DNA from: Lachnospiraceae bacterium
GTDB taxonomy: Bacteria; Bacillota; Clostridia; Lachnospirales; Lachnospiraceae
NCBI GenBank assembly: GCA_029053015.1
Contig: JAIDHX010000036.1
Span: forward strand, 124,001 to 188,000
DNA length: 64,000 nucleotides
Direction: 5' to 3'
The position numbers were made by a program, and so were the translations under genes. The notes below the pieces were generated by a model that did no database searches, was not told where the DNA came from, and saw only the letters and a list, made by a program, of their open reading frames with translations. Positions 3,589 through 64,000 of the stretch are shown here, piece by piece (the stretch's first letter is position 1; the number at the start of each line of letters is the position of its first letter).

Positions 3589-3617
3589 TACGGGGAAGGA
3601 GGCTGCGGCGGGGGCAC

Positions 3618-3796
3618 TTACAGAAGGCCACGGGAGGGTTACGGCGGGGGACGCCCGAGTGGCAGTCTGTTCCCAAGGAGCCGCGCTCTCGCTCGAAAAA
3701 AAGCGTAGTGGTACTAAGCTCGAAAGAACCTCGCTAAGTACCAACGCTTTTTAACGGGCTCCTTCGGGAACAGCCTGCCCCTCGGGCTGTCACCGG
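3618..3796 (+). repeat. Palindromic repeat, left copy of an inverted pair
   Basis: This GC-rich stretch aligns over about 180 nt with the reverse complement of 3990-4175. The longest exact blocks are 26 nt (3669-3694 against 4098-4123) and 16 nt (3756-3771 against 4019-4034). Within the copy, 3661-3778 is itself a long imperfect hairpin: GTTCCCaaGGAGCC with GGCTCCttcGGGAAC, AAAAAGCGT with ACGCTTTTT, and GGTACTAAGC with GCTAAGTACC. No reading frame is supported. It behaves like a mobile or dispersed palindromic element. Family membership was not checked. Confidence 0.8.
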
Positions 3797-8214: not shown

Positions 8215-11200
8215 ATGTCGGAAATAAAAAATGAAGTGTATCAACCCATGACATTTGATGCCATTAAAATCGGTCTGGCTTCCCCTGAAAAAATCAGGGA
8301 GTGGTCAAGGGGCGAGGTCTTAAAGCCTGAGACTATCAATTACAGAACTTTAAAGCCTGAGAGAGACGGTTTGTTCTGTGAAAAGATTTTCGGGCCGAAC
8401 AAGGACTGGGAATGTCATTGCGGTAAATATAAGAAGATCAGGTATAAGGGCGTTGTCTGCGACCGCTGCGGCGTTGAGGTGACGAAGGCGAGCGTGCGCA
8501 GGGAGCGTATGGGACATATTGAACTGGCGGCTCCTGTTTCCCATATCTGGTATTTTAAGGGAATCCCCAGCCGTATGGGACTGATTCTTGATCTGTCACC
8601 CAGAGTGCTGGAGAAGGTGCTTTACTTTGCTTCCTATATTGTATTGGATGCAGGAAGTTCCAATCTGGAGTATAAGCAGATTCTCTCCGAAAAGGAATAT
8701 CAGGATGCAAGGGAAACCTGGGGCAACAAATTCCGCGTAGGAATGGGTGCGGAAGCAATCAAGGAGCTTTTGCAGGCGATTGATTTGGAGCTGGAAGCAG
8801 AGGAATTAAAGACCGGACTGAAAGAATCCACCGGACAGAAGCGCGCACGTATCATCAAGCGGCTTGAGGTGGTGGAGGCATTCCGTGAATCCGGCAACCA
8901 GCCGGAGTGGATGATTCTGGATGTCATACCGGTTATCCCGCCCGATATCCGTCCCATGGTACAGTTGGACGGCGGACGTTTTGCAACGTCTGATTTGAAT
9001 GATTTATACAGAAGAATTATCAACAGAAATAACCGTTTAAAGAGGCTTCTGGAGCTGGGCGCTCCCGATATCATTGTCCGCAATGAGAAGAGGATGCTGC
9101 AGGAGGCTGTGGATGCCCTGATTGACAACGGCAGGCGTGGACGTCCCGTGACAGGACCCGGCAACAGAGCGTTGAAGTCCCTGTCAGATATGTTAAAGGG
9201 TAAGTCAGGACGTTTCCGTCAGAACCTTCTGGGTAAGCGTGTGGACTACTCCGGACGTTCCGTTATCGTGGTTGGTCCTGAGTTAAAGATTTACCAGTGC
9301 GGTCTGCCCAAGGAGATGGCGATCGAGCTGTTTAAGCCCTTTGTGATGAAGGAGCTGGTGGCAAGAGGCATCAGCCAGAATATTAAAAATGCAAAGAAGC
9401 TGGTGGAGAGACTGGATACCAGCGTATGGGATGTGCTGGAAGAGGTAATCAAGGAGCATCCGGTTATGCTGAACCGTGCACCTACACTGCACAGACTTGG
9501 TATTCAGGCGTTCGAGCCGATTCTGGTAGAGGGTAAGGCAATTAAGCTGCATCCGTTGGTATGTACCGCGTTCAATGCCGACTTTGACGGCGACCAGATG
9601 GCGGTTCACCTTCCTTTGTCCGTGGAAGCACAGGCGGAGTGCCGTTTCCTGCTGCTCTCCCCGAACAACCTGTTAAAGCCTTCCGACGGCGGTCCCGTGG
9701 CGGTTCCGACGCAGGATATGGTGCTTGGTATCTACTATCTGACACAGGAGAGAGAGGGCGCTAAGGGCGAAGGCAAATATTTTAAGAATGTAAACGAAGC
9801 AATACTGGCATATGAGAATCAGGCAATCACCCTGCAGTCCCGCATCAAGGTAAGAGTTACCAAGAAGCGTGAGGACGGCGAAGAGGTTTCGGGTATTGTG
9901 GAGTCCACCTTGGGACGCTTTATCTTCAATGAAGTGCTTCCGCAGGATTTAGGCTTTGTGGACAGAAGCGACCCGGAGAATTTCTTAAAGCTGGAAGTTG
10001 ACTTCCATGTCGGCAAAAAGGGTCTGAAGCAGATTCTGGAAAAGGTAATCAACACCCACGGCGCATTCAAGAATGCGGAGGTGCTTGACTATATCAAGTC
10101 CATGGGCTACAAATACTCTACCAGAGCGGCGATGACCGTATCCATTTCCGATATGACGGTGCCTGCCGAGAAGCCCGAGCTGCTTGCACAGGCGCAGGCG
10201 ACGGTGGATAAGATTTCCACAAACTTCAGGCGCGGTCTCATCACCGAAGAGGAGAGATACCGTGCGGTGGTAGAGACGTGGAATGAGACGGATAAGGAGT
10301 TGACTGACAGGCTGATTGGCGGACTGGATAAGTACAACAACATCTTTATGATGTCTGACTCCGGTGCCCGTGGTTCCAATCAGCAGATTAAACAGCTTGC
10401 AGGTATGCGTGGTCTGATGGCAGATACCACCGGACGTACCATCGAGCTGCCCATCAAGTCAAACTTCCGTGAAGGACTGGACGTACTGGAATACTTTATG
10501 TCCGCTCACGGTGCAAGAAAGGGTCTGTCCGATACCGCGCTGCGTACCGCGGACTCCGGTTATCTGACCAGACGTATGGTTGACGTGTCACAGGAGCTTT
10601 CCATCAGGGAAATCGACTGCAGCGAAGGCAGGGCTGATATCCCGGGTATGTGGGTCAAAGCCTTTATGGATGGCAAGGAAACCATTGAGGGATTGAAGGA
10701 CAGAATCACAGGACGTGTTTCCTGTGAGGATATTTACGATAAAGATGGCAATATGATTGTAAAACACAACCATATGATTACGCCGAGCCGCGCTGCTAAA
10801 ATTTTGAGCGTCGGTGTAAATGCCGAGGGAGAGCCGATTGAAGAGGTCAAGATTCGTACCATTCTGACCTGCCGTTCCCATAACGGTATCTGTGCAAAGT
10901 GCTACGGCGCTAACATGGCAACCGGTGAGGCAGTACAGGTCGGCGAGGCGGTCGGCATCATTGCGGCACAGTCCATCGGTGAGCCCGGTACACAGCTTAC
11001 CATGCGTACCTTCCATACGGGCGGTGTTGCCGGTGACGATATCACACAGGGTCTTCCCCGTGTAGAGGAGCTTTTTGAGGCAAGAAAGCCGAAGGGTCTT
11101 GCGATTATATCGGAGTTTGCCGGAAGGGTTGAAATCCGCGACACGAAGAAAAAACGTGAAGTAGTTGTGACCAACGACGAGACCGGCGAGAGCAAGGCAT

Positions 11201-11907
11201 ACCTGATTCCTTACGGTTCCCGTATCAAGGTAGTGGACAGTCAGGTACTGGAAGCCGGCGATGAGCTGACAGAAGGTAGTGTCAATCCGCACGATTTGCT
11301 GAAAATCAAGGGTATTCGTGCCGTACAGGACTATATGCTTAGGGAAGTACAGCGTGTATACCGTCTGCAGGGCGTTGATATTGCCGACAAGCACATTGAA
11401 GTCATTGTGCGCCAGATGTTAAAGAAGATTCGCATTGAGAATAACGGCGATACCGAGTTCTTGCCCGGTACGCTGGTAGATGTACTGGACTTCGAAGAAA
11501 TGAACGAGCGGCTTGTTGCAGAAGGCAAAGAGCCGGCAGAAGGCAAGCAGGTTATGCTGGGTATCACCAAGGCAGCGCTTGCTACCAATTCCTTCCTGTC
11601 TGCAGCGTCCTTCCAGGAGACCACAAAGGTTCTGACGGAGGCGGCAATCAAGGGCAAAGTTGACCCGCTGATTGGTCTTAAGGAAAATGTTATTATCGGT
11701 AAGCTGATTCCTGTTGGTACAGGTATGAAGCGTTATCGCTCCACGCATTTGAGCACGGACGATGTCCTTGAGATTTCCGGCGACGATGAAATCAGCTTTA
11801 GCGATGAGGCTCCCGCCGAAGCGCTTATGGAGGAGGAAGTCATTTCCGCCGAAGAGCCTGTGGAGGAAGCAGAACCCGAAGAGGCAGAGTTGATTACAGA
11901 AGAATAA
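8215..11907 (+). CDS. rpoC: DNA-directed RNA polymerase subunit beta'
   Basis: Largest RNA polymerase subunit, 1230 residues. It carries the N-terminal zinc-binding [20 protein letters not shown] motif, the universal catalytic NADFDGD motif that holds the active-site magnesium, the bridge-helix and trigger-loop region including MRTFHTGG, and the second zinc site [13 protein letters not shown]. It ends in an acidic tail rich in Glu ([14 protein letters not shown]). The start ATG follows GGAAGGGAGTG. It is cotranscribed with rpoB and stopped by the hairpin at 11918. Confidence 0.97.
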
Positions 11908-50197: not shown

Positions 50198-50596
50198 ATG
50201 CAGAATAAAGCGCAGGCACTTATGGAAAAAATAGGTATTAAAGAATTATTTGAAATTCCGCATGGAAAATTACAAGGCAGCACAGTACTTGCTACAAATG
50301 AAAAAGAAAATTTAACGGTTTCACAATTGCTGAAATCTGCGGAGTATTTAATTAAATTTATAAAAAGTAATTTTGATGTAGATGAATATCGGTATTCGAC
50401 TACTATAATTTTCTTAAAGTCAGTGCAATTAGTGCTAAATAATGGGAAAGCAGATAAACCAAGTAAAGAGGATGCACACATTATTATAGATGTTATACAT
50501 GAGATAGCGGATATGCGTGCTAAAAACGACTATGAAAAGAAATTAAATGAAGAAATTGCAGTGTCATTAAACTGTCTGATTGAAATATTAAAATAG
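50198..50596 (+). CDS. Hypothetical protein preceding the type I island
   Basis: Not recognised. A 132-residue soluble, mostly helical protein with a strong start (AGAAGGAGGAGTCAT then ATG). No motif is visible. It lies between a perfect terminator and the paired operators of the XRE/hsd unit, on the same strand. It is probably a separate small transcription unit. Confidence 0.55.
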   Translation: MQNKAQALMEKIGIKELFEIPHGKLQGSTVLATNEKENLTVSQLLKSAEYLIKFIKSNFDVDEYRYSTTIIFLKSVQLVLNNGKADKPSKEDAHIIIDVIHEIADMRAKNDYEKKLNEEIAVSLNCLIEILK

Positions 50597-50961: not shown

Positions 50962-52719
50962 ATGAGCAACGATAAAATCAGTGATGTTGGAATAAATATT
51001 GCGGAAAAGGCTACTGTTATTTGGAATGTGGCAGATATGCTTCGTGGACCATTCAAACCGCATGAATATGGTCTTGTTATCTTACCGATGACAGTGGTTA
51101 AGAGATTTCATGATTGTTTGTTACCTACCCATGATAATGTGCTTGCGCAATATGAAAAAGTAAAACATTTGGCAGTCATTGATGGATTTTTGACAAGAGC
51201 ATCCGGATATCAATTTTATAACACAAGTAAATTTACTTTTGAGACACTTTTGGCTGATCCGGATAATATAGAAACAAACTTTAAAGATTATTTAGCAGGT
51301 TTTTCAGCAAATGCGCAGGATGTATTATCTAAGTTTGATTTTGATAATATTATCAAAAGAATGGTGGAGAGCAATACACTGTATCTTATTATCAAAGAAT
51401 TTAATTCTGAAAAAGGATACTTAGGAGCTGACAAAATCAGTGCCGTGGACTGTGGTTACATTTTTGAAGATTTAGTACGGCGCTTTTCAGAGTCCTTTGG
51501 CGAGGAAGCGGGAGCACATTTTACCAGTAGGGATATTATATATCTTATGACAGATTTGCTTCTTGCGGATGCCAATTTAGATACAGGTGGAATGACTGTT
51601 TATGATATGACCATGGGAACATCCCAGATGCTTTCTTGTATGGAGGAGAGAATTCATGATCTGAATAGCGATATAGAGGTTACTTGTTTTGGACAGGAGT
51701 TCAACCCATCCACCTATGCGATAGCAAAAGCAGATATGATGATTCGCGGCGGAGATCCGGATAATATGCGGTTTGGAGATACCTTGTCTGATGATCAGTT
51801 TGCAGGTTTTACCTTTGATTATTGTATTTCTAATCCGCCTTTTGGAATTGACTGGAAGCGTGAACAGAAAAAGGTGGAAGAAGAAGCAGCAAGAGGAGAA
51901 CAGGGAAGATTTGCACCCGGACTTCCTAAAATCAGTGATGGTCAGCAGTTATTTGTGTTAAACGGACTTTCTAAACTAGCACCAGATGGGAAAATGGCAA
52001 TTATACAAAATGGTTCTCCGCTATTTTCAGGAGATGCGGGGAGCGGCCCATCAGAGATTAGAAGATATATTTTGGAAAACGATTGGTTGGACTGTATAGT
52101 GCAGCTTTCTACAGATATGTTTATGAATACGGGTATCAGCACCTATATTTGGATCTGTTCCAAAAATAAGCCTACATATAGGGAGGGAAAGGTACAACTT
52201 ATCGATGCTTCTCATTGTTATGAGGCTAGAAGAAAAAGTATTGGAATGAAACGGAATGATATTACAGACAAATGTCGGGAACTGATTGTAAAGGCTTATG
52301 GTTCCTTTGAAAATTGTGCTGTGTACGGAGATAAGAACGGAATATATTGTGAGAGTAAAATATTTGAGACGGTAGAGTTTGGATATAACAAAATTGTGGT
52401 GGAAAGACCTGAACGAGATGAGAATGGGGAAATCGTCTTGAAAAAAGGAAAGCCTGTTGCAGATGCAAATTTGCGTGATACGGAGAATGTACCGCTGGTG
52501 CAGGATATCGATAGGTACTTTGAGAGAGAAGTGCTCCCCTATGCGGAAGATGCATGGATTGATAAGAAAAAGACTAAGGTGGGGTATGAAATACCTATGA
52601 CAAGATATTTCTATGAGTATCAGGCTCCGGAAAAGGTGGAGGATATTGTGGCTCGGATTCATGTGTTAGAGGCTGATATTTCTGCATCTTTAGAGAAATT
52701 GTTTGCTGAGGAGAAATAG
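50962..52719 (+). CDS. hsdM: Type I restriction-modification methyltransferase subunit HsdM
   Basis: A 585-residue DNA adenine methylase subunit. It has an N-terminal HsdM_N helical domain (RGPFKPHEYGLVILPMTVVKRFHD), then the N6-Mtase domain: GAHFTSRDIIYLMTDLL, AdoMet motif VYDMTMGTSQMLSCM near 213, and the catalytic ISNPPFGIDWK near 287. The AdoMet motif departs from the usual DP-x-x-GSGG, which I believe is a subfamily trait, though not verified. The C-terminal part binds HsdS. It overlaps nothing and runs into hsdS with a 2-nt gap. Confidence 0.93.
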   Translation: MSNDKISDVGINIAEKATVIWNVADMLRGPFKPHEYGLVILPMTVVKRFHDCLLPTHDNVLAQYEKVKHLAVIDGFLTRASGYQFYNTSKFTFETLLADPDNIETNFKDYLAGFSANAQDVLSKFDFDNIIKRMVESNTLYLIIKEFNSEKGYLGADKISAVDCGYIFEDLVRRFSESFGEEAGAHFTSRDIIYLMTDLLLADANLDTGGMTVYDMTMGTSQMLSCMEERIHDLNSDIEVTCFGQEFNPSTYAIAKADMMIRGGDPDNMRFGDTLSDDQFAGFTFDYCISNPPFGIDWKREQKKVEEEAARGEQGRFAPGLPKISDGQQLFVLNGLSKLAPDGKMAIIQNGSPLFSGDAGSGPSEIRRYILENDWLDCIVQLSTDMFMNTGISTYIWICSKNKPTYREGKVQLIDASHCYEARRKSIGMKRNDITDKCRELIVKAYGSFENCAVYGDKNGIYCESKIFETVEFGYNKIVVERPERDENGEIVLKKGKPVADANLRDTENVPLVQDIDRYFEREVLPYAEDAWIDKKKTKVGYEIPMTRYFYEYQAPEKVEDIVARIHVLEADISASLEKLFAEEK

Positions 52720-52721
52720 GT

Positions 52722-54011
52722 ATGGCTAGAGAAATGAAGGTTAGTGGGGTTGAGTGGATTGGAGAGATTCCGGTAGATTGGAATATAAAAAGAAATAAAC
52801 TGCTTTTTGTTGAGGTAAACAATAGGTGTGAAAACGGTAATGAACATATGTTACTTTCAGTTTCTGAATATTATGGGGTCGCACCTAAATCTGAAAAAGT
52901 ATCTGATGGAGAGTTTGAAACCCGAGCAGAGACACTAGACGGATATAAATTGTGTCAATCAGAAGATATTGTTATGAATATTATGCTTGCGTGGAAACGC
53001 TCTACAGGAAGAAGCGCTTATGATGGCATAGTAAGCCCTGCATACTGTGTATATAGAAAAAAAGCTGATATAGACACAAAGTATTATCACTATCTTTTTA
53101 GAACAGATATAGTAGCAGAGTTATTTAAAAGGTACTCAACAGGAATTATAGATTCTCGTTTAAGGCTATATCCTGATAAATTTATGGGTTTGAATATGAT
53201 TGTTCCCCCTTGCGACGAACAGTGTCAAATAGCAGAATATCTTGATCAGCAATGCGTCTATATAGATTCCGTTATAGAAAAAACAAAAGTTTCTATAGAC
53301 GAATATATAAAATTAAAACAGGCAATTATCACGCGGACAGTAACTAAAGGTGTGCGTGGTGATAGGGAAATGAAGGACAGTGGAATTGAGTGTATTGGGC
53401 AGATTCCTAGTAACTGGGATATGAGAAAGATTAAATATATTTTCAAAATTCAGAAAGAAATTGCTGGAGAAGAAGGACATACTGTGCTATCTATAACACA
53501 AAAAGGGATTAAGCCAAAAGATTTAACTAGAAATGAGGGGCAATTAGCTGAAAACTATAGTAATTATCAACTTGTACATATGGGTGATTTTGCTATGAAT
53601 CATATGGACTTATTAACCGGTTGGGTAGATATTTCCAAATATGAGGGCGTAACAAGTCCCGATTATAGGGTGTTTCGGTTAATTGATAAGGATAATTATT
53701 ATAGTAAATACTACTTATATTTGATGCAGATGTGTTATACGAATCGTATTTTTTATGGATTAGGGCAAGGAGTAAGTGGATTAGGAAGATGGAGATTGCA
53801 AGCGGATAAATTTTTGAATTTTTCTATTACAGTACCAAGTTATGAAGAACAGGAAGAGATTGCGGATTATCTTGACAAAAAATGTTATGCAATAGATGAC
53901 CTTATTGCCAAGAAAGAGCAATATCTTTCCGAGATAGAAAATTATAAAAAATCTCTGATTTACGAATATGTTACAGGTAAAAAAGAAGTACCACAGGAAT
54001 ATCAAGCATAA
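52722..54011 (+). CDS. hsdS: Type I specificity subunit HsdS
   Basis: A 429-residue specificity subunit with two target-recognition domains. Each starts with the same theme (VSGVEWIGEIPVDWNIKRNKLLF and DSGIECIGQIPSNWDMRKIKYIF) and ends in a conserved helical spacer (IAEYLDQQCVYIDSVIEKTKVSIDEYIKLKQAI and IADYLDKKCYAIDDLIAKKEQYLSEI). The enzyme should therefore recognise a split, two-part site. There is no second hsdS copy or inverted repeat in the window that would allow phase-variable switching. Confidence 0.93.
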   Translation: MAREMKVSGVEWIGEIPVDWNIKRNKLLFVEVNNRCENGNEHMLLSVSEYYGVAPKSEKVSDGEFETRAETLDGYKLCQSEDIVMNIMLAWKRSTGRSAYDGIVSPAYCVYRKKADIDTKYYHYLFRTDIVAELFKRYSTGIIDSRLRLYPDKFMGLNMIVPPCDEQCQIAEYLDQQCVYIDSVIEKTKVSIDEYIKLKQAIITRTVTKGVRGDREMKDSGIECIGQIPSNWDMRKIKYIFKIQKEIAGEEGHTVLSITQKGIKPKDLTRNEGQLAENYSNYQLVHMGDFAMNHMDLLTGWVDISKYEGVTSPDYRVFRLIDKDNYYSKYYLYLMQMCYTNRIFYGLGQGVSGLGRWRLQADKFLNFSITVPSYEEQEEIADYLDKKCYAIDDLIAKKEQYLSEIENYKKSLIYEYVTGKKEVPQEYQA

Positions 54012-54048
54012 GGTGCAGATATTATCCATAATTTGGAGGGGGAAATCA

Positions 54049-56160
54049 ATGAAACATATAGAAATTGAATCTACATGGGATATGTTTTTAGATGTCATTA
54101 ATGGCTTATATCTCGAATTTAATCCTATGTCTGTAGCAGATACATGCTATGTTGATATTGAGGAGGCATGCAAAAAACTTGCTTGTTATTCCGTTTCACA
54201 GGATATGGGGCATGGTAAAAAATCGCCAAAAGAGCTGTTGGAGATGGAAAAATGTGGGCTGATTGTAAACAGCCATATTTTAGTTCGATTAACGAGGCAT
54301 TATTATCTGTTGGGTGTTATAGATGGGAAAGATACCAAACAGTTATGTGATTTATTGAAAACGCTCCATGATTATTTAGGAAATCAGTATTACTATTCTG
54401 TGGATAGGAAAATTATAGAACAACTGCTTGCATTAAGCATTAGCCTCCCAACTATATGTCGCCATCAACATAATGTATATGACGAAAGGATGGCACAGTC
54501 TGCTCGATTTTTAAAGGAACAGGGTTTTTCGTTATCTGTGAAAATGGGCACTATTTCCTATTCTGATGAAACTGGTCAGGAATTTTTTAATCTTCTGGAA
54601 CGAAAAATAGCAACAATAGGCGGCAACACAGTGTATAAAGCGATTATGGAAAAATATGTGGCACAACGGTATTTTTCGGATATGGATCGCTACCTATATG
54701 GAAGAACACTTGACCAAGAAAGAAATGAGCCGTTTAATCTTTTGCTTCAGATATCTGCAAAGCATCTGAGACAGGGTCGGGATTTACAGATAACTGAAGA
54801 TGTAAAAGGATATGTGGATGGAATTATAACTCTTGCAGAGGCTATTTTGGATGTCTGTGATGTTCAGGGAACCTCTGGAATTGAATATGGCATGATGAAC
54901 CTGGAACTTTTCCCTCTTTTTCTAATAAATGAAATGATATTTGATAAAATTTGTGTGGCGCGACAGTACAGTGCAAGATATATTCTGTTGTCTTTGGATT
55001 ATTTGATAAAACCATGGTTTAATTATGCCCAAAGGGACTATTCTTATGAGGATTATTATAAGGTAGCTGACTATATATTAAAGAGACCAACTTACTGTGG
55101 ATATGTGGATACAAAGATATTGAGAGAAGAAACGGGTATTGCATTTTATCGGTTGAAACAGATTTTAAAAGATATATCTCTTCCAGCAAAGGATGTGAAT
55201 CGTGAATTTACCTCTTTAGATGGCAGAATAAATCTGTTTACCAGGCCGATTATTGGTTTTGCATCAGAACCATATCTGTTTCTGGATGAACATTTTTGTG
55301 GAATCGGTTTTTTTTATGCTGCCTGCGACATAATACGCCAAAATTATTCTATTTTGGAACGTAAGCAGGGGGAGGCTGTTGAGCAGATGCTTCGAGATGA
55401 AATGGAGAAAAAAGGTTATGGCATTAAATATGGAACTTATCCGGAAAAAAATGGCATCAAATCTGGACAATGTGACCTTGTGTTACAAAATACAAAATTA
55501 GCTTTTTTTGAAATAAAGAAAAAAAGTATCACAAACGAACTTGATGTTTTAGATGATGTTACTGTATTAGAAAATATGACATTTGGCATGGTGCGGGCAC
55601 AGAAACAATGTTTTTTTCATGAATGCTATCTAAAATCAAATGGAGAAATGCTTTTGCAGGATTGTCAGCAGAAAATCACCTGTGAAAACGGATCTATTCC
55701 AGCTTATAAAATTAGTGTATGTTATCCGGAATATATGTTTTTAACTAATAAAATGTTCAGTATGAACTTGTTGGAAATATTGTTGTTAGGTGAATTTAAG
55801 ACGAACGATCCGAATCTCCAAGGGAAATTGGATAAATTGAATCAAGTCGGTGAGGAAATTCGTAAATGTGTTATCTCCCAAAATCCAGGGCATTCCATTC
55901 ATGCACGGGAAATCTCTTTCTATTCGCTGTTCTGTAGCATGCAGCAAATTTTGACGGCGGTTTGGTGGTGTGCGGATGAGAAGGAATTTTTTCAGGTACT
56001 TGATGCTTGGTTCTATTCAACTGATAAAACATTGGATCCATACATATCTCTTTTTGCAACAAAGGTTATAAACATTGATTCGCAAGAAAACTCAGTAAGG
56101 AAAGCAATGCTAGAATTGGTGAAGAACAGGGAAACGCCCACTATGATAATAGGAGGATGA
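54049..56160 (+). CDS. Uncharacterised protein with PD-(D/E)XK nuclease-like motif between hsdS and hsdR
   Basis: ATG 54049 (after TTGGAGGGGGAAATCA) gives 703 residues; the track extension to 53968 overlaps hsdS. The first 430 or so residues are mostly helical with no recognised domain. Around 449-491 there is a PD-(D/E)XK-like core: EMEKKGYGIKYGTYPEK, then Asp476 in GQCDLVLQ, then Glu488 and Lys490 in AFFEIKKKS. This spacing matches magnesium-dependent nucleases. The rest is helical. It lies in line with hsdM and hsdS and before hsdR, a place normally empty or filled by known extras such as anticodon nuclease. Role unknown; nuclease activity is inferred. Confidence 0.7.
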   Translation: MKHIEIESTWDMFLDVINGLYLEFNPMSVADTCYVDIEEACKKLACYSVSQDMGHGKKSPKELLEMEKCGLIVNSHILVRLTRHYYLLGVIDGKDTKQLCDLLKTLHDYLGNQYYYSVDRKIIEQLLALSISLPTICRHQHNVYDERMAQSARFLKEQGFSLSVKMGTISYSDETGQEFFNLLERKIATIGGNTVYKAIMEKYVAQRYFSDMDRYLYGRTLDQERNEPFNLLLQISAKHLRQGRDLQITEDVKGYVDGIITLAEAILDVCDVQGTSGIEYGMMNLELFPLFLINEMIFDKICVARQYSARYILLSLDYLIKPWFNYAQRDYSYEDYYKVADYILKRPTYCGYVDTKILREETGIAFYRLKQILKDISLPAKDVNREFTSLDGRINLFTRPIIGFASEPYLFLDEHFCGIGFFYAACDIIRQNYSILERKQGEAVEQMLRDEMEKKGYGIKYGTYPEKNGIKSGQCDLVLQNTKLAFFEIKKKSITNELDVLDDVTVLENMTFGMVRAQKQCFFHECYLKSNGEMLLQDCQQKITCENGSIPAYKISVCYPEYMFLTNKMFSMNLLEILLLGEFKTNDPNLQGKLDKLNQVGEEIRKCVISQNPGHSIHAREISFYSLFCSMQQILTAVWWCADEKEFFQVLDAWFYSTDKTLDPYISLFATKVINIDSQENSVRKAMLELVKNRETPTMIIGG

Positions 56161-56404
56161 GTAAAAAGATTATTACGCAAATGATAGAATTATTAAATGT
56201 TTCCATAAATTTGTTATAATGAAATCCTGTTAATAACTATTTACAAAAATTATTATTCCTTACTTGATACAGGCAGATCTGGCCTTTTTATAATTGGCTT
56301 TTGCGTTGTTATATTTTGATTGATTTAAAGGTAGACAAGCTGACGTATCAGGACATCATATTACTGCAGGATAAGGTCAGACAATGGATTGCGGAGGAAG
56401 AAGC
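56161..56404 (+). other. Intergenic region before hsdR with its own extended -10 element
   Basis: Contains TGTTATAAT (56212-56220), an extended -10 lacking a clear -35, then a small AGGC...GCCT hairpin followed by TTTTT (about 56270-56290) that could attenuate. From 56316 a 30-codon frame (TTG start, ending QWIAEEEA) overlaps the hsdR start as ATGA. It may be the tail of a lost gene or a coupling peptide. Confidence 0.4.
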
Positions 56405-59400
56405 ATGAGCATAACAATTACCACAGAAAAACAATTTGAATCGGATATTGAGGCTTTTCTCATATCAACCGAAGGTGGATATACAAAGGGAAATGGAACA
56501 TATAATCCGAAGCTGGGTTTATATCCGGATAAACTGATTTCTTTCATCCAGCGTACCCAGCCAAGGGAGTGGGCAGCATTCGAGAGGCAGAATGATATAG
56601 ATCCTGTGCGTAAATTTTGTGTTGCGTTTAATAATGCTTGTGATATGGATGGAGTGCTTCATGTTTTGCGTAATGGATTCAAACATAGAGGTACTACCTT
56701 TAAAGTCTGCTATTTTAAGCCTGAATCTGGATTAAATGATACGGCTGGGGTTCAGTATGCGGAAAACGAAGTAGAGTGTTATAGACAATGGCATTATTCT
56801 GCTGATACGAAAAAATCAGTGGACATGGTACTTGTCGTGAATGGTATTCCGGTGTTTGCATTTGAACTAAAAAACCAGTATACAGGACAAAATGTAGATA
56901 ATGCCAAAGCGCAATGGATGTACGATAGAGATTCGCGAGAAATATGCTTTCAATTTAATAAGAGAATTTTGGCGTATTTTTGTGTAGATCATACAGAAGT
57001 TTGGATGACAACGAAACTGGCAGGAAAAGATACCTATTTTTTGCCCTTTAACCAAGGTTCTAATGGAGCCGGTTCTGATGGCGGCGCAGGAAATCCGCCC
57101 AATCCGGATGGATATCCTACGGCGTACCTTTGGGAAAATGTATTCCAGAAAGACAGCATGTTAGATATTATCCGAAAGTTTATCAATTTGCAGAAAAAGA
57201 AAATATTAATATTTCCTCGCTATCATCAGTTGGATGTTGTTCGGAAGCTTATTGCAGATGTACGGAAAAATGGAGCAGGTAAGAATTACCTGATTCAACA
57301 TAGTGCAGGTTCCGGTAAATCTAATTCTATCGCGTGGACAGCATATCGTCTTGCGTCACTTTACAATGAAAATAATAAGCCGGTATTTTCCAGTGTGATT
57401 GTTGTGACGGATCGTACTGTATTAGATGCACAGCTTCAGGAAACGATTTCGGGATTTGACCATAAGCTAGGTGCAGTGGAGACTATAGGAGAGGATAAAA
57501 CTTCTCAAAATTTGAAAGACGCAATCAATGACGGAGTGCGTATTATTGTTACAACCTTACAGAAGTTTCCGGTCATTTACACAGAGGTTGATAAGGCAAA
57601 TGGCAGGTGCTTTGCGATTATTGTGGATGAGGCACATTCTTCTCAGACGGGTAGTTCAGCATTGAAACTAAAGACTGCACTGGCAGACACAGAAGAAGCC
57701 CTGAGGGAGTATGCAGAGCGCGAAGGTTTGGCTGAGGAAGAAGTTGATCCTGAGGACAAGCTCGTGAAAGAAATGCTTGCCCAAGGAAAGCATAAGAACT
57801 TATCTTTTTTTGCCTTTACTGCAACGCCAAAGGCTACCACGTTGGAAATGTTTGGGCAGGAGCAGGAGGACGGCTCTTTCCATCCATTTCATGTGTATAG
57901 CATGAGGCAGGCGATTGAGGAGAAGTTTATTTTGGATGTCCTTCAAAATTATATGACCTACAATACTTGTTTCCGAATTGCAAAGACCATGACAGATAAT
58001 CCGGATGTTCCTTCCAGCAGGGCGGCAAAAGTCATTCGTAAATATCAGGAATTACATCCTTATAATATCAGTCAGAAATCGCAGATTATCGTGGAAACAT
58101 TCAGAGATACCACAAGGCATAAGATTGACGGCAAAGGAAAGATGATGGTGATTACATCGTCCAGACTGGCTGCTGTCCGCTATTATCATGAAATCAAGCG
58201 ATATATCGAGGAAAAGAAGTACGATGATGTGGATATTCTGGTGGCTTTTTCCGGTGTAATTGATGACAGAGGAGAGGAATACACAGAATCAAAATTGAAT
58301 GTGCGTAAAGACGGTTCCCACATTTCGGAGAATCAGACCAAGGCGGAGTTTCATGATAATTTTAATGTGTTGATTGTAGCGGAAAAATATCAGACAGGAT
58401 TTGATGAGCCGCTTTTACATACGATGATTGTGGACAAGAAGTTAAAGAATGTGAAAGCAGTACAGACTTTATCAAGACTAAACCGGACTTGCGAGGGCAA
58501 GACAGATACTTTTGTGCTGGATTTTGTAAATAAAGCGGAGGATATAAAGGACGCATTTCAGCCGTTCTATCAGGAAACATTTTTGCAGGAAGAGGTAAAT
58601 GCGGATTTATTATACCAGACGCAGAGAGAATTGCGAGCTTATGGTATTTACTCGGATGAGGATATTGAAGCCTTTACAAACGAGTATTACAAAAAAGGCA
58701 AACAGGACGACAGGGCAATGGGACGGATGAGCAGCATTTTGCTCCCTGTTTCTAACCGTTATAACAAAAAGACCCAGAACGAAAGATACCAATTCCGTAG
58801 ACAGGTTCGCAACCTGATTAAATGGTATAGCTACATATCGCAGATATTAAGAATGTTTGATAAAGAGTTACAGAAAGAGTATGTGTTCTGCTCTTATCTG
58901 ATTGGATTATTGCCCAAAGACCCTGTGGAGTTGATTGATCTAGAGGGTAAACTGAAACTGGAATATTACAAGTTGCAAAAGACATTTCAGGGTGAAATTG
59001 CTTTGGAAGAAGCAAAGACTATGTATGTTCCGGCAAAGCACAAAGGTGTCAAGGGAATGGATGAAAAAACACCTTTAGATGAAGTGATTGCGAAGATCAA
59101 TGAAAAGTTTAAAGGGAATTTCACAGAGGGAGATAAAGTTATTCTGTCAGCATTGAGAGACAAGCTGCTTTCTGATAAGAAATTGAAAAAGATGGCACAG
59201 TCCTCTGACCCGCAGATTTTTGTGGAAAGTATTTTCCCTAAAGCGTTTGGTACAGCAGCGCAAGATGGGTATATGGAATCGCAGGAATCGTATCAGAGTT
59301 TGTTCGAGGATACGGCTAAGTATAATGCAATTATGAGTGCGTTGGCAGAGGTTGTGTATCGGGAGATGAGGAAGAAAGGAGCTAAGACTTCAGAGGAAAC

Positions 59401-59488
59401 AGTAGCATATATGTATGATGAGTCGCGGAATCTGTCTATGGTGGCGGAAGAGTCTGCATCATGCAGTAATGGAATGGAGTTCAAATAG
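56405..59488 (+). CDS. hsdR: Type I restriction endonuclease subunit HsdR
   Basis: Motor and nuclease subunit of the type I complex. ATG 56405 ([14 protein letters not shown], after GGAGGAAGAA) is preferred over 56384. 1027 residues: N-terminal PD-(D/E)XK nuclease ([20 protein letters not shown], about residues 138-156), then a superfamily 2 helicase with Walker [11 protein letters not shown] (about 300), the DEAH box in IVDEAHSSQ (about 407), [23 protein letters not shown] and [11 protein letters not shown]-terminal helices bind HsdM. Intact by eye. Confidence 0.94.
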
Positions 59489-62976: not shown

Positions 62977-64000
62977 ATGATGAATTATTCTGATAAAGTA
63001 CAAGCTGCCGTAAACAGTGCGCATGACACAGCAATTGCAAATAAGATACTTGATATGATGCAGGACTTGCTATTAAAAAATGATGAGAATACAGCTCGCC
63101 GATGGATTTGGGAACTGATTCAAAATGCTAAAGATGTGTCTGGTAACAAGGAAATGGTAAATATCGAAATTGATTTTAATGAGAATGAAAGATATTTATC
63201 CTTTAAACATGATGGAAAATGTTTTACGACAGAGAATATTGTTTATTTGATTTCACAGGTTTCTTCAAAAGAAAGAAATCAATCTCCGAATAATGGAATT
63301 ACAGGAAAATTTGGAACAGGATTTTTAACTACCCATTTACTATCACAAAAAGTAGTTGTAGATGCTTTTTTGCAGGATGAAAATGAGCTGTTAAAGAAAA
63401 TACATATATTATTAGATAGAAGCGGTGAAACTAAGGAAGAGGTTATTGCTGCAGTAAACGAGAGTTTTAGACAGCTTAAAGAAAGCAAAGAAATAGATAT
63501 TTCTGTTTTGGGGGAAACGGGAGGTTTCAATACTTGTTTTTTATATGAATTGGATAATAGAGGAATCGAGATTGCAAAAAACGGATTAAAAAGCTTTTAT
63601 GCTTCAATTCCTTATGTATTTGCCTTCGTAGAAAAAATTAATTCTGTAAAAGTAAATGATTCATTGTACATAGAACGTGGAGAAAAAGGAGTACTTGGGA
63701 TAGCGGAGGTACATACAATTTATGTAACTGAGAATGGAAGCAAGAATAAAATATATATATTAACATATCATGAAGAAAAAATAGATTTGGCAATACCTAT
63801 CATAGCAAAAAATAATGAGATTTTTATAGATGAGTATCCAAAGGACGTTCCTAAGTTATTTTGTACGTTTCCCCTTATTGGAACAGAGGATTTTTCATTT
63901 CCAGTTATTGTAAACAGTGCATATTTTAATCCGAATGACCCACGAAGTGGGATTTACTTAACTGATGTCGAGAACAAAGTTGTTGATGAGAACAAGGATT
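62977..64000 (+). CDS. GHKL (Hsp90-like) ATPase, truncated by the window end
   Basis: An open frame of more than 340 codons running off the window, so absent from the ORF track. It starts at ATG 62977 or 62980 after GAAGGGGTGAGGG. The N-box is RRWIWELIQNAKDVSG (Glu-xxx-Asn-Ala-x-Asp) and the glycine-rich lid is GITGKFGTGFLTTHLL, both diagnostic of GHKL ATPases (Hsp90, gyrase B, MutL, histidine kinases, sacsin-type). Residues such as SSKERNQSPN fit the family. No kinase phospho-acceptor domain is seen so far, so a defense-type Hsp90/sacsin-like protein is more likely. It lies 37 nt after the STAND gene and may function with it. Confidence 0.8.
   Translation, partial: MMNYSDKVQAAVNSAHDTAIANKILDMMQDLLLKNDENTARRWIWELIQNAKDVSGNKEMVNIEIDFNENERYLSFKHDGKCFTTENIVYLISQVSSKERNQSPNNGITGKFGTGFLTTHLLSQKVVVDAFLQDENELLKKIHILLDRSGETKEEVIAAVNESFRQLKESKEIDISVLGETGGFNTCFLYELDNRGIEIAKNGLKSFYASIPYVFAFVEKINSVKVNDSLYIERGEKGVLGIAEVHTIYVTENGSKNKIYILTYHEEKIDLAIPIIAKNNEIFIDEYPKDVPKLFCTFPLIGTEDFSFPVIVNSAYFNPNDPRSGIYLTDVENKVVDENKD

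Follow-up and report, generated by a model that had tools for sequence, protein, structure and literature searches.

The gene between hsdS and hsdR in a type I restriction-modification (R-M) operon of this Lachnospiraceae genome probably encodes a PD-(D/E)XK nuclease from an undescribed family, one that stands as a self-contained, single-gene unit and is most likely directed against phages or plasmids. The gene entered the slot, displaced a YhcG-type nuclease, and is probably transcribed together with the R-M operon. The protein is here called P0001, and related loci carry L numbers. Positions refer to the window, by which we mean the whole 64,000-nucleotide stretch that was analysed; the features discussed are collected in Table 1.

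The open reading frame is a real gene. The ATG follows a GGAGG motif (54035-54039) at a distance of 9 nt, the gene starts 37 nt past the end of hsdS on the same strand, and its two closest homologs in the genome collection (L002, 80% identical, and L003, 66% identical) start at the position equivalent to 54049; an alternative in-frame ATG upstream, at 53968, would overlap hsdS. The coordinates of the frame and the numbering of Asp476, Glu488, and Lys490 in the first-pass annotation are right, and its placement of the gene between hsdS and hsdR also holds: both flanking genes are complete and on the same strand, so that P0001 is embedded inside a known defence system. The gene is under purifying selection, strongest in the PD-(D/E)XK domain, with a dN/dS against L002 of 0.136 for the whole gene and 0.072 in the domain.

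Table 1. Features of the hsd locus and of the gene for P0001 (window coordinates).
Feature	Position	Strand	Evidence
hsdM, type I methyltransferase	50962..52719	+	family and PADLOC matches
hsdS, type I specificity subunit	52722..54011	+	family and PADLOC matches
Swapped-in unit without homology to L074, containing the 703-aa gene	54031..56275	+	DNA comparison
PD-(D/E)XK family protein gene, 703 aa (P0001)	54049..56160	+	ORF, RBS, 12 homologs, dN/dS
Possible helix-turn-helix-like segment, residues ~327-392	55027..55224	+	alignment pattern; helices in low-confidence model
PD-(D/E)XK domain, residues ~395-600	55231..55848	+	invariant residues, profile matches, dN/dS
E445 codon	55381	+	invariant residue
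Y464 codon	55438	+	invariant residue
D476 codon	55474	+	invariant residue
E488 codon	55510	+	invariant residue
K490 codon	55516	+	invariant residue
Q520 codon	55606	+	invariant residue
yhcG (DUF1016) relic, internal piece, 89% identical to L074	56276..56357	+	DNA comparison
yhcG 3'-end relic, 16 protein letters and stop, overlapping hsdR start	56361..56405	+	DNA comparison
hsdR, type I restriction subunit	56384..59488	+	family and PADLOC matches
STAND-like NTPase gene, 1139 aa	59520..62939	+	nSTAND3 27.4 bits (cut-off 27.2); DNA comparison
TmtA-type (sacsin/HSP90-like ATPase) gene, running off the window	62977..63999	+	PADLOC TmtA 2.3e-92

The first-pass annotation had read P0001 as a PD-(D/E)XK-like protein of unknown family with a core of D476, E488, and K490, and this description is borne out by both conservation and profile comparison. 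Searches of the 703-aa protein against Pfam and NCBIfam found no family at its cut-off, PADLOC gave no match (the family is absent from PADLOC-DB 2.0.0), and a single-sequence search against solved structures matched none. We discounted weak matches to DUF5460/SrfE, SNaCT8, Csx1/CARF, and Card1, which missed cut-offs or came from individual members, as chance or generic resemblance among PD-(D/E)XK proteins.

The hallmark of the PD-(D/E)XK superfamily is a D...(D/E)xK motif, often preceded by a Glu. In P0001 this corresponds to E445, D476, E488, and K490, all four of which are kept in 12 of 12 sequences of a homolog alignment whose members are in some cases only 16-22% identical. The alignment has 15 invariant positions, Y464 and Q520 among them. 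The proposed triad does not vary freely among homologs and stands out beyond chance, because only 5 of the 145 D/E/K residues in P0001 are invariant (D299, E445, D476, E488, and K490) and the triad is among them; by simple arithmetic on the alignment, the chance that three randomly picked D/E/K residues would all fall among these five is ~2e-5.

Profile comparison points the same way. When a profile of residues 395-600 was compared with solved structures, the only significant match was 3fov (UPF0102), at E 5e-4; weak, non-significant matches were obtained to 2eo0 (0.3) and 1y88 (1.5). All three are of PD-(D/E)XK type and align in register on the same motif, and no other structure types were matched. 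Against a YraN profile the domain scores 70.1, compared with at most 20.6 for 60 column-shuffled controls; the parts of P0001 beyond the domain give 24.7 and 13.7. As the YraN sequences came from a family-profile search, the shuffles and the 3fov match serve as the stronger controls. Structural models add little: a full-length AlphaFold model from three close homologs has a pLDDT of 33, too low for use, and a domain model from five sequences (pLDDT 43, pTM 0.40) gives, at low confidence, the expected order of elements for this fold: helix, three strands, helix, strand. Foldseek found no significant fold match for this low-confidence domain model. Taken on sequence evidence, the assignment of residues ~395-600 to the PD-(D/E)XK superfamily, with YraN/UPF0102 as the nearest group, is well supported.

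YraN is a widespread protein of ~120 aa. P0001 shares its E-D-ExK core motif and a clear profile match, but is 703 aa long with 394 extra N-terminal residues, and its score of 12.4 bits against TIGR00252 (YraN), far below the cut-off of 69.05, places it outside the YraN family. Searches found no known relative of the 394 N-terminal residues; the alignment pattern and the low-confidence model hint at a helix-turn-helix at residues ~327-392, which we offer as a weak guess.

The hsdS-hsdR slot has variable contents among loci with an hsdR 45-94% identical to that of the window. In the closest relative locus (L074, HsdR 94% identical) it holds a YhcG/DUF1016 gene, in L075 a 211-aa gene at 11119-11754 with no Pfam match, and in L077 a DUF4238 gene; in L078-L080, L082, and L083 it is empty. 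The hsdM-hsdS interval carries cargo as well—AbiJ_NTD4 in L075 and RhuM in L081. The slot has been put forward as a possible hotspot where defence genes recombine, and DarTG2 lies between hsdS and hsdR just as the P0001 gene does, although DarTG2 is a toxin-antitoxin pair and the P0001 gene stands singly (PMC12255303). Overall, the slot resembles a socket at which bacteria exchange candidate antiviral genes.

DNA comparison with L074 delimits one such swap. Homology extends as far as 54030, a unique stretch follows, and from 56361 onward the window again matches the end of the L074 yhcG gene and hsdR, at 87%. Relics of yhcG at 56276-56405 separate the 703-aa gene from hsdR, and therefore the locus once had yhcG in the slot; the gene has since lost ~800 bp from its 5' part and another 177 bp internally. 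The view that the new gene took the place of an older YhcG-type PD-(D/E)XK nuclease is thus well supported by the sequence comparison. The start of hsdR may instead be the ATG at 56405, past the yhcG relic. The STAND-like NTPase gene, which lies between hsdR and the TmtA-type gene and is missing from L074, is by the same comparison a second inserted gene of the island. The TmtA-type gene itself is 90% identical in L074, where it directly follows hsdR. Upstream of hsdM, a 132-aa open reading frame (50198-50596) with no family match is 81% identical in L074, and may belong to the R-M locus.

The displaced and the displacing protein resemble each other in plan: YhcG/DUF1016 (Pfam PF17761 and PF06250, PADLOC PDC-S02) also has a YraN-type PD-(D/E)XK domain behind a helical N-terminal part; its presence in the same slot is shown by L074 and by the relics in the window. 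A 2005 study placed YhcG in the YraN-like group and noted one occurrence with a type I cluster (PMC1189080). In contrast to this shared architecture, pairwise comparison of YhcG (368 aa) with P0001 (703 aa) yields no sequence match, and the DUF1016_N and YhcG_C domains have no match in P0001 at E 1, so that P0001 is not a member of the YhcG family.

The P0001 family is rare but broadly spread. Among 392 genomes of the order, the only full copy is that of the window, and one other genome has a marginal 80-residue match. Tblastn searches of plasmids uncovered relatives (16-22% identical) in Xanthomonas, Methylobacter, Acinetobacter, Rhizobium, Bradyrhizobium, and Alteromonas, together with an interrupted copy in Shewanella. 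A motif-pattern search of viral contigs added two homologs in prophage contigs; the phage records searched contained none. Members thus span Bacillota, Gammaproteobacteria, and Alphaproteobacteria, on plasmids and in prophages. The family profile also gave 140 matches in the phylum, mostly short YraN genes that are not members. Two longer matches look like other families: an 810-aa protein with a C-terminal SEC-C-like motif (L046, 7549-9981) and a 521-aa protein (L047, 1503-3068), each with a similar PD-(D/E)XK-like stretch and each probably of another unnamed family. Broken copies were observed in Xanthomonas strain LMG930 (L008, 6775-8876), where the gene is split into two open reading frames, and in Shewanella baltica (L045, 5299-8627), where it is apparently interrupted by an IS3 element.

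Linkage to a type I R-M operon is seen in the window only. No hsd genes surround the homologs in L002, which begins 1.4 kb from a contig end, or L003, and searches of both genomes with the window's HsdM and HsdR gave distant matches only; the distant homologs, most of them plasmid-borne, stand alone, away from any type I R-M operon. Neighbours of family members include Bil genes (L005), Gabija (L006), Dsr1 (L009), Hma (L042), and a DNA cytosine methyltransferase gene (L043); L044 lies on a conjugative plasmid close to replication or conjugation genes, and in L090 a lysozyme-type gene occurs within a few kb, at a contig end. Taken as raw co-occurrence, these neighbourhoods fit a defence gene, with the caveat that plasmids are rich in such genes. 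In L002, the two copies of an 81-nt direct repeat (1279-1359 and 3594-3674, 91%) bracket the homolog; the repeat occurs nowhere else in that genome and is perhaps an insertion trace.

The first-pass annotation had compared P0001 to PrrC, which guards EcoprrI, and had suggested that a second nuclease beside HsdR has a different substrate. The latter cannot be deduced from position; the former is not supported. A guard of this kind would bind the type I enzyme, be silenced by it, and be released against RNA or DNA when anti-restriction factors block R-M. P0001 shares with PrrC a nuclease-type gene inside a type I R-M operon (PMC3874165), and the close spacing after hsdS on one strand would suit such coupling, but the homologs at 80% and 66% identity stand apart from hsd genes, the distant ones are solo, and the slot in relatives holds unrelated genes or none. 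The fold class also differs, and Pfam and NCBIfam reveal no P-loop family match in P0001 where PrrC has an ABC-type ATPase N-terminal part. We therefore consider a PrrC-like guard very unlikely, although such coupling is possible at this one locus because genes taken up by an operon can become coupled to it. Slightly less probable again is a guard built from an unrelated PD-(D/E)XK enzyme, which would be held in check by HsdMSR and freed when phages block restriction, with the slot housing exchangeable guards of the R-M enzyme.

Solo, single-gene spread and a large N-terminal region would also fit a sensor-effector that causes abortive infection, acting alone on RNA or host DNA to kill or arrest the infected cell, and one homolog does adjoin Dsr1; however, DNA is the predicted target of the YraN-like group (PMC1189080) and nothing here points to RNA or self-killing, which makes this reading unlikely. 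We also regard as rather improbable, more so than abortive infection, that the nuclease serves plasmid or prophage maintenance or DNA repair, processing DNA for the upkeep of mobile elements with no part in defence. The conjugative plasmid context of L044 and the link of YraN and Hjc-like relatives to recombination favour such upkeep, but the rarity of the family in the order, its swap with the defence-candidate family PDC-S02, and its frequent defence neighbours do not.

We thus return to a single-gene defence nuclease as the probable reading. On this reading the gene entered the variable cargo slot between hsdS and hsdR, displacing the YhcG-type nuclease; its large N-terminal region would sense or bind invading DNA or a phage-caused state, whereupon the PD-(D/E)XK domain would cut DNA, using metal ions bound by E445, D476, and E488 and helped by K490. 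As an independent sensor-nuclease it may profit from the transcription of the R-M operon. We infer the catalytic activity and the DNA substrate of P0001, and likewise its N-terminal sensing, anti-phage role, and co-transcription with the R-M operon.

Defence-gene candidates nested in R-M loci are already a known kind—PADLOC lists phage-defence candidates by guilt by embedding (PMC12988326, PMC10855318). As far as the tools show, three things are new: the family to which P0001 belongs, the motif that it conserves, and the yhcG relics. The relics are direct sequence evidence that one PD-(D/E)XK nuclease replaced another in the same R-M slot, and they mark a precise junction, which makes the idea of a defence-gene exchange site between hsdS and hsdR testable there. 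The family, with no Pfam, NCBIfam, or PADLOC entry yet with a broad spread, is a candidate for a new single-gene defence system in which specific residues can be targeted by mutation.
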